A DNA stretch of 64,000 bases, taken from contig CM026390.1 in NCBI GenBank assembly GCA_014843695.1, positions 97,911,686 to 97,975,685 of the forward strand, read 5' to 3'. This DNA is from Archivesica marissinica (Eukaryota; Mollusca; Bivalvia; Venerida; Vesicomyidae). A program made the translations under genes and the position numbers. This document shows positions 13,682 through 16,600 of this stretch, piece by piece. Under the pieces are notes generated by a model. That model searched no databases, was not told where the DNA came from, and worked only from the letters and a program-made list of their open reading frames with translations. Each line of letters starts with the position of its first letter. The stretch's first letter is position 1.

Positions 13682-16600
13682 CTTGAAATAACAAACACAG
13701 ATATAGCAGTAACTTGAAATAACAAACACATATATAACAGTAACTTGAAATAACAAACACAGATATAGCAGTAACTTGAAATAACAGACACATATATAAC
13801 AGTAACTTGAAATAACAAACACAGATATAACAGTAACTTGAAATAACAAACACAGATATAACAGTAACTTGAAATAACAAACACAGATATAACAGTAACT
13901 TGAAATAACAAACACATATATAACAGTAACTTGAAACAACAAACACAGATATAGCAGTAACTTGAAATACCAAACACAGATATAACAGTAACTTGAAATA
14001 CCAAACACAGATATAACAGTAACTTGAAATAACAAACACAGATATAGCAGTAACTTGAAATACCAAACACATATATAACAGTAACTTGAAATAACAAACA
14101 CAGATATAACAGTAACTTGAAATAACAAACACAGATATAACAGTAACTTGAAATAACAAACACATATATAACAGTAACTTGAAATAACAAACACAGATAT
14201 AACAGTAACTTGAAATAACAAACACAGATATAACAGTAACTTGAAATAACAAACACAGATATAACAGTAACTTGAAATAACAAACACAGATATAACAGTA
14301 ACTTGAAATAACAAACACAGATATAACAGTAACTTGAAATAACAAACACAGATATAACAGTAACTTGAAATAACAAACACAGATATAACAGTAACTTGAA
14401 ATACCAAACACAGATATAACAGTAACTTGAAATAACAAACACAGATATAACAGTAACTTGAAATAACAAACACAGATATAACAGTAACTTGAAATAACAA
14501 ACACAGATATAACAGTAACTTGAAATAACAAACACAGATATAACAGTAACTTGAAATAACAAACACAGATATAGCAGTAACTTGAAATAACAAACACAGA
14601 TATAACAGTACTTGAAATAACAACACAAAACAAACAAAACAAAACAAAACAAACAAAACAAACACAGATATAACAGTAACTTGAAATAACAAACACAATA
14701 TAACAGTAACTTGAAATACCAAACACAGATATAACAGTAACTTGAAATAACAAACACAGATATAACAGTAACTTGAAATAACAAACACAGATATAACAGT
14801 AACTTGAAACAACAAACACAGATATAGCAGTAACTTGAAATAACAAACACAGATATAACAGTAACTTGAAATAACAAACACAGATATAGCAGTAACTTGA
14901 AATAACAAACACAGATATAGCAGTAACTTGAAATACCAAACACATATATAGCAGTAACTTGAAATAACAAACACAGATATAACAGTAACTTGAAATAACA
15001 AACACATATATAGCAGTAACTTGAAATAACAAACACAGATATAACAGCAACTTGAAATAACAAACACATATATAGCAGTAACTTGAAATAACAAACACAT
15101 ATATAACAGTAACTTGAAACAACAAACACAGATATAGCAGTAACTTGAAATAACAAACACAGATATAGCAGTAACTTGAAATAACAAACACAGATATAAC
15201 AGTAACTTGAAATACCAAACACAGATATAACAGTAACTTGAAATAACAAACACAGATATAGCAGTAACTTGAAATACCAAACACATATATATCAGTAACT
15301 TGAAATAACAAACACATATCTGTCAATAACTTGAAATGACACACACGCATCTATCAACATATTGAAATAAGGTGGACGTCGTGATAGCGCAGTGGGTGCG
15401 CGTTCACTTCAGGTGCGAAAGGTCCGGAGTTCGAGCCCCGCTGGAGCTGTTACGATTGTACCCTTAGGCAATGCATTTAAGTTCCACGTTGCCTCTTCTC
15501 TCTCCCTCGTGGCGATGTATTCCATCAGGAATGAGGTCTCGAGGGTGATTAATATAAGTTGTAAGAACTTGTTTCTCAATCGAGCTAAAATAAATGTGTG
15601 CAAATATTGAAATAATAAACTGTTTACCAGTACGTTGAAATAACAACTACACATTTATTCATACAATGAAGTAACCAATATACCTATGTTTACATTGAAA
15701 TAACAAACGCTATCAGTGTCTAGATATAACAATAATACATATATTAATACATTGAAATGACAAACGCTATCAGTGACTAGATATAGCAATAATACATATA
15801 TTAATACATTGAAATGACAAACGCTATCAGTGACTAGATATAGCAATGATATTGCACTTCATACAGTACATCGCCCCGTCAGTAATGTCGCCATATTGCA
15901 CTTCATACAGTGCACCGCCCCGTCAGTAATGTCGCCATATTGCACTTCATACAGTGCACCGCCCCGTCAGTAATGTCGCCATATTGCACTTCATACAGTA
16001 CATCGCCCCGTCAGTAATGTCGCCATATTGCACTTCATACAGTACATCGCCCCGTCAGTAATGTCGCCATATTGCACTTCATACAGTGCACCGCCCCGTC
16101 AGTAATGTCGCCATATTGCACTTCATACAGTGCATCGCCCCGTCAGTAATGTCGCCATATTGCACTTCATACAGTGCACCGCCCCGTCAGTAATGTCGCC
16201 ATATTGCACTTCATACAGTGCACCGCCCAGTCAGTAATGTCGCCATATTGCACTTCATACAGTGCACCGCCCCGTCAGTAATGTCGCCATATTGCACTTC
16301 ATACAGTGCACCGCCCCGTCAGTAATGTCGCCATATTGCACTTCATACAGTGCACCGCCCCGTCAGTAATGTCGCCATATTGCACTTCATACAGTACATC
16401 GCCCCGTCAGTAATGTCGCCATATTGCACTTCATACAGTACATCGCCCCGTCAGTAATGTCGCCATATTGCACTTCATACAGTGCACCGCCCCGTCAGTA
16501 ATGTCGCCATATTGCACTTCATACAGTGCACCGCCCCGTCAGTAATGTCGCCATATTGCACTTCATACAGTACATCGCCCCGTCAGTAATGTCGCCATAT

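Follow-up and report, generated by a model that had tools for sequence, protein, structure and literature searches.

The human interferon gene 6-16 (IFI6) carries a minisatellite with multiple splice donors. In lancelets, tandem repeats known as mirages span the exon-intron boundary, at donors as well as acceptors, and bring cryptic AG and GT signals with them (PMC3087553, PMC3902484). These reports describe the following traits: many units, not all, carry AG or GT; inner units are homogenised and the cluster edges are excluded from this (PMC3087553); there is length polymorphism between haplotypes or somatic instability, and regular splicing is undisturbed (PMC3087553), as RT-PCR and cDNA are said to suggest (PMC3087553, PMC3902484). 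In the Rogers model, introns are gained by tandem duplication of an AGGT segment (PMC4974935). The open-licence literature yielded no mirage reports in molluscs or bivalves, only the lancelet cases from a handful of genes. Here we describe arrays built from splice junctions in the bivalve Archivesica marissinica. A gamma-glutamyltransferase (GGT) gene has an array ahead of its last exon, and this array is, with a probability of about 0.8, a mirage: its 31-bp unit would derive from the exon 11 acceptor, would have multiplied before the GGT paralogs split, and would be spliced out via the last acceptor.

The window, a stretch of 64,000 nucleotides (C5:97911686-97975685 of the 1.54 Gb genome that was searched), carries the GGT gene on its minus strand. 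The gene has 11 exons encoding 612 aa, and its match to PF01019 (E=7.3e-154) covers the whole domain (profile positions 6-511 of 512). Exon 9 alone matches the GGT 1 light chain in PDB (4gdx, which we take to be the human protein) at E=1.6e-25. The best full-length homolog is a Mercenaria protein (59%), and bivalves form the majority among the top matches. Exon 10 (17408-17521, minus strand, exon model) and exon 11 (13529-13681, minus strand, exon model and homolog alignment), the last coding exon with its stop at 13531-13529, join in phase 0, exactly as modelled in the preliminary description. Minisatellites account for 37% of the GGT intron bases, and TRF arrays for 91% of intron 10 (17407-13682, minus strand). 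An open frame resembling a dynein heavy chain exon was seen by eye elsewhere in the window (5562-5954, minus strand).

The 31-bp array occupies 13676-15346 on the minus strand (TRF, 53.7 copies, 93% matches). Its earlier placement at 13682..15350 was right as to the array itself; the end at 15350 was wrong, since decayed units continue to about 15851. Counting the real exon 11 acceptor, TTTCAAG/G at 13682-13688 (minus strand; the slash marks the junction), which is the last of the series, there are 53 TTTCAAG sites on the minus strand, which confirms the row of some 53 almost identical acceptors described earlier, as 52 decoys plus the real site. The commonest stretch of 20 intron bases occurs at 31 of the 53 sites and is that of the real acceptor. 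Between 15300 and 13682 there are 52 AGs, about one per unit, and the AG signal is kept in all 52 decoys, in the way that mirage units carry AG or GT. The base after the AG is T in every decoy (TTTCAAG/T) and G at the real site; 49 of the 52 decoys read TTACTG where the real junction reads GTACTG after the same tract, as had been noticed. The branch-point motif yTnAy does not occur within the 31-bp unit.

The preliminary description went further and proposed that upstream acceptors are used, adding a Cys-rich periodic peptide to the GGT C terminus. Several features of the array would suit such an extension. Each unit offers an AG behind the pyrimidine tract of the real site, minus-strand ORFs run through the array in all three frames (597, 596 and 538 aa), and the distance from the real site is divisible by 3 in 16 of the 52 decoys, which bears out the remark that every third unit keeps the exon 11 frame; an intact GGT C terminus is expected from 17 of the 53 acceptors, the real one included. 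The openness of the unit in three frames is real but ordinary for its composition, since 6.5% of shuffles are equally stop-free and 6 of the 17 consensus units tested in the window, among them the 31-bp unit itself, can be read without a stop in every frame of one strand. No relative of the repeat-encoded peptide was found among 7992 scored candidates, so that the extension draws no support from peptide homologs. Across the 120 listed GGT homologs, the exon 10/11 joint is free of insertions. One residue upstream of the joint, 7 of the 116 homologs that cover the position have an insertion, namely 3 residues in six lancelet proteins and a long unrelated insert in one tree shrew protein. Finally, all three consensus units tested from a paralogous array (paralog A, below) contain stops, and the exon-near block of that array has no TTTCAAG at all. 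The proposed extension is therefore not supported, and a protein extender working through alternative acceptors is very unlikely, although an upstream acceptor may be used on rare occasions. The homologs fit the use of exon 11's own acceptor, as none of the 120 has an insertion at the joint; use of the last, exon-adjacent acceptor would leave the encoded C terminus intact.

The origin of the unit is best read from the paralogs, here called A, B, C, D, F and H, with W for the window gene. In the window the exon-like half of the unit matches its own exon 11 at 5 of the first 6 bases and at 7 of 14 overall, so that the derivation from the junction leans on paralog A. The array has 101 matches in the genome, and the strongest outside the window lie on C18 beside GGT exons, in intron 10 of paralog A. 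In that locus (L009) exon 11 starts at 1106 and the array at 1111, i.e., the array ends 4 bp before the exon. Upstream of exon 11, paralog A was examined over 8.9 kb, most of which consists of 31-bp arrays (73.7 copies, followed beyond a 122-bp block by another 197.8). Many of the far units consist of GTGTTTGTTATTTCAAG followed by GTACTGATAGATGG, the two parts corresponding to the 17 bases of intron and 14 bases of exon that meet at the exon 11 acceptor; of the 14 in GTACTGATAGATGG, 12 agree both with the window's exon and with A's own. Taken as 17 bases of intron and 14 of exon, the real junction of the window gene agrees with the array of paralog A at up to 29 of 31 bases, and at 80% or more in 127 places; the shuffle maxima were 0.65 for the window junction against its own array and 0.71 for A's junction against A's array. 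The window unit and the CAAG unit of paralog A share 26 of 31 bases in the same register. It appears, then, that the exon-derived half of the window unit has drifted and its acceptor half has stayed unchanged. The exon-near units of paralog A score 15.5 against the window unit, not above the shuffle maximum of 17.0.

The same 101 matches could also be taken to mean that a dispersed repeat or mobile element brought the array to exon 11. Units of three loci away from GGT exons (L010, L016 and L018; periods 30, 30 and 31) resemble the window unit above 100 shuffles each, with scores of 18, 18 and 16 against shuffle maxima of 15.5, 15.0 and 12.5. Because they do so, a small weight is given to this origin and the junction origin is held at the probability stated above. 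The likeness may nevertheless be due to chance, since the three were picked as the best matches of a whole array-rich genome; they are possibly a kindred dispersed family, a reading against which the exon 11 bases inside the units of paralog A speak. The nine non-GGT match regions examined contain arrays with other units, mostly of another period, and it is a GGT intron that yields the strongest outside matches. An origin by dispersal is improbable on this evidence.

Other paralogs preserve less of the array. Paralog C has 3.5 copies of the 31-bp unit plus relics, and paralog F has relics only, recognised by eye; their own junctions score no better than shuffles (0.68 against a maximum of 0.68 in C, 0.68 against 0.71 in F). 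In paralogs B and D the acceptor reads TTTGTTATTTCAAG/G, with no 31-bp array in the 0.9 kb (B) and 1.0 kb (D) examined upstream of exon 11 and a 37-bp array farther up. A tree was built from exons 8, 9 and 11 (the last 235 residues) with 14 of the 120 homologs. W groups with B, D, C and F (100/99), and A falls outside, among Mercenaria, Mactra, Mya and Dreissena, without resolved order; the node that orders the events in B and D is weak (86/78). A further pair of GGT copies on another chromosome (G000 C7:36138108-36166703 and 36227408-36256003), with the same exon scores and a constant offset of 89 kb, is a recent or an assembly duplicate.

A second mirage lies in the same GGT gene, at the donor of exon 8 (25181-25368, minus strand; donor TGTA/GTAAGT at 25181/25180), so that tandem repeats span the exon-intron boundary at donor 8 and at acceptor 11. 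The 37-bp array (23758-25101, minus strand, 35 copies) repeats the donor together with as many as 26 exon bases per unit. Intron 8 contains 20 exact decoy donors TGTA/GTAAGT between 25068 and 24030, and more copies extend to 23597. Reading on beyond the real donor meets a TAG codon immediately (ATG TA/G), so that a product spliced at a decoy would be truncated; 4 of the 20 decoys were translated for this check. A 98.4% copy (559 bp) of 23457-24013, the distal end of the donor mirage, lies in intron 7 (27213-27771, minus strand). All six close paralogs that were examined, namely W, A, B, C, D and F (D without its exon 8), have an intron 8 array of the exon 8 end: 37 bp x 35 in W, 54 bp x 20.2 in A, 38 bp x 33.3 in B, 38 bp in several rows in C, 38 bp x 19 in D, and 38 and 37 bp in F. 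The exon 8 end, or junction, matches its own array at 36 of 36 bases in W and at 32 of 36 in A. In B, C and F the donor junction scores 0.69-0.72 against its own array, with maxima of 0.67-0.69 in 500 shuffles, and their arrays contain the ACTGTTAAC core. In the distant paralog H, intron 8 is free of arrays. Paralogs thus have arrays at these two junctions as well, and on a plain reading of the tree both arrays would predate the A-W split; independent origins with the same 31-bp register are unlikely.

Persistence at two junctions on both sides of the A-W split might also mean that the arrays are a splicing device, in which the acceptor ladder and the intron 8 donors are kept to buffer or tune the recognition of splice sites, perhaps by serving U2AF and U1 as a landing strip. 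The intact AG of all 52 window decoys and the 20 exact donors in intron 8 are as such a device would have it. The signals are less well kept in the paralogs: the AG is lost in part of the units of paralog A (77 CAAGG, 85 CACGG and 12 AACGG in the far block; no TTTCAAG and 40 TTTAATTGTAG in the exon-near block), and B and D lack the array over the stretches given above. Homogenisation, moreover, shares sequence among units with no need of selection. A kept device is accordingly an unlikely explanation, though the decoy counts give it some weight.

The junction origin suggests a simple course of events. A tandem duplication straddling the junction would begin the array, and it would be tolerated because splicing keeps using the exon-adjacent copy. 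Unequal exchange would then lengthen and homogenise the array. This process is proposed because similarity among units peaks at the array's centre: identity to the consensus is 0.971 in units 1-10, 0.984-0.987 in units 11-30, 0.964 in units 31-50 and 0.806 in the last three, so that, as in mirages, the inner units are homogenised and the edges excluded. Repeated duplication of the exon 11 junction would have gone on before the GGT paralogs parted, giving W and A a common origin, and the array would be removed with intron 10 by use of the last acceptor. How the last acceptor could be told from the decoys was also considered. T rather than G after the AG should weaken an acceptor. A rule of this kind fits the window; it does not fit paralog A, whose real acceptor has A after the AG and whose nearest decoys end in TGTAG, and for this reason the base after the AG was rejected as a general discriminator. 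For the same reason nearness to the exon is a more general candidate for the choice of site, and we infer that splicing prefers the exon-proximal copy.

The remainder of intron 10 is also repetitive. Decayed units of the 31-bp array (15347-15851, minus strand, with a 57-bp sub-array at 15691-15851) are broken by an insert at 15371-15603 (plus strand, sequence read by eye), which lies between 12-bp duplicates ATATTGAAATAA at 15359-15370 and 15604-15615. We take the insert to be SINE-like on the strength of tRNA-like boxes seen by eye; ARAGORN found no intact tRNA in 12500-18500. A 44-bp array follows (15849-17405, minus strand; 22.4 and 13.0 copies in two TRF rows) and stops 2 bp from the exon 10 donor. 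It is no copy of that donor, since its unit reads ACATTACTG in place of the donor's GTATTTCTG.

Both ends of intron 10 read CAAG/GTA, as they would if the intron had been born by AGGT tandem duplication after the Rogers model and the array were a leftover of that event. The footprint of such a birth, a 5' intron end like the downstream exon and a 3' end like the upstream exon, is absent at intron 10, whose ends are unlike the neighbouring exons (shuffle fractions 0.67 and 0.60). In 20 such tests, intron 2 scored 0.003 at one end. A Dreissena protein departs from the sequence of a paralog right after the codon that ends exon 10 here, which suggests that intron 10 is older than the array. A Rogers-type birth is therefore highly improbable.

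An assembly error as the source of the array is barely credible. Elsewhere in the window there is a false-looking duplication across a gap of 1000 N (46851-47850): 38620-41346 and 47851-50575 are 99.9% identical, and 43662-46850 matches 51099-54288 at 97.7%. The pair 38620-46850 / 47851-54288 is likely a false duplication, with overlapping contigs or haplotypes apparently placed twice. It lies away from the arrays discussed and contains no second match to exon 1. The exon 11 array, for its part, has internal variants and the insert with its target duplicates, and the same anatomy recurs at a separate locus on C18.

The exon 9 donor (ACAGCTTTA/GTGAGTAGG, at 20270/20269) recurs just once, at 20100-20123 (minus strand), 156 bp downstream of the real site. 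Another 37-bp array (42333-42525, minus strand) stops 4 bp short of the acceptor at the first coding exon, which starts at 42328. A 118-120-bp unit forms arrays at 27807-28173, 40643-41472 and 49874-50575, the last two inside the suspected duplication. The introns might be so rich in minisatellites that some arrays end at or span exons by chance, and GGT alone would leave room for this: its two flush array edges are mildly unusual (permutation P=0.021), and no array comes closer than 40 bp to the match at any of 14 paralog loci of exons 1, 4, 6, 7 and 9. Chance would hardly place exon bases inside the units, as they are at donor 8, at exon 11 of paralog A and at five junctions of myosin genes, which served as controls.

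For this control 40 myosin-head exons with 300-bp flanks were taken from 74 matches, chosen for clean matches before the flanks were seen. The nearest array per exon side was counted, TRF rows with scores below 100 were ignored, and the match edge served as a proxy for the splice site in L065 and L085; two arrays that each lie behind another one (L067 733-825 and L089 1-163) were left out, and single junction-like copies at L056 and L059 stand outside the count. Copies of the junction within an array were found at no fewer than 5 of 80 exon sides, i.e., the donors of L061, L067, L073 and L092 and the acceptor of L089, a lower bound because junction copies were measured only where an array was near. 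The L089 acceptor is a small version of the case in the window, with three copies of a 31-bp unit (L089 213-304, sense strand) and CTAG/GTAC at the junctions. Of the 23 arrays within 300 bp, 14 span a splice site or come within 20 bp of it, where 2.4 would be expected if their edges were spread evenly over 200 bp (P about 6e-9); this null is rough, and the exons, being partly neighbours or paralogs, are not fully independent. Arrays at splice junctions are thus not an oddity of GGT, and chance placement is improbable.

Such arrays are found here in a mollusc; they involve two gene families and recur at shared joints in several paralogs, which points to a general mutational process at splice junctions. 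It is conceivable, with the odds somewhat against it, that splice junctions are birth places of minisatellites in a broad sense: breakage would keep duplicating the boundaries, a sizeable share of introns would carry 3 to 200 copies of their own sites, and an adjacency rule would let the first donor copy and the last acceptor copy win. That junctions are favoured through breakage linked to transcription or splicing is a guess. In any case, one gene with 20 exact donor copies and 52 near-copies of an acceptor provides a natural competition test.

Among the known systems, the Rogers-model introns share with the clam gene a tandem duplication that contains splice signals; in GGT no new intron is apparent and an existing one appears to have grown. 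The IFI6 minisatellite is alike in supplying many splice sites to one exon. Its sites are donors, whereas those predicted for the clam GGT are acceptors at exon 11 and donors at exon 8. The array is most likely of the same kind as the lancelet mirages (BflGb6 and BflGb9 globins, Adh3, troponin C and PGBD5), to judge from its sequence: both are tandem minisatellites of the exon-intron boundary, at donors and acceptors, with AG or GT in many units, homogenised inside and with the edges excluded. In lancelets splicing reportedly proceeds with no sign of harm; in the clam the exon-adjacent site is predicted to be chosen. The clam arrays differ in that they occur in a bivalve, in that 53 to about 200 copies of one acceptor stand against 3 and 6 units in BflGb6, and in that they recur at the same two junctions of several paralogs and, in an unrelated gene family, at no fewer than 5 of the 80 junction sides. 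To the mirages known from lancelets, the clam case would thus add mirages in a mollusc and in two gene families.
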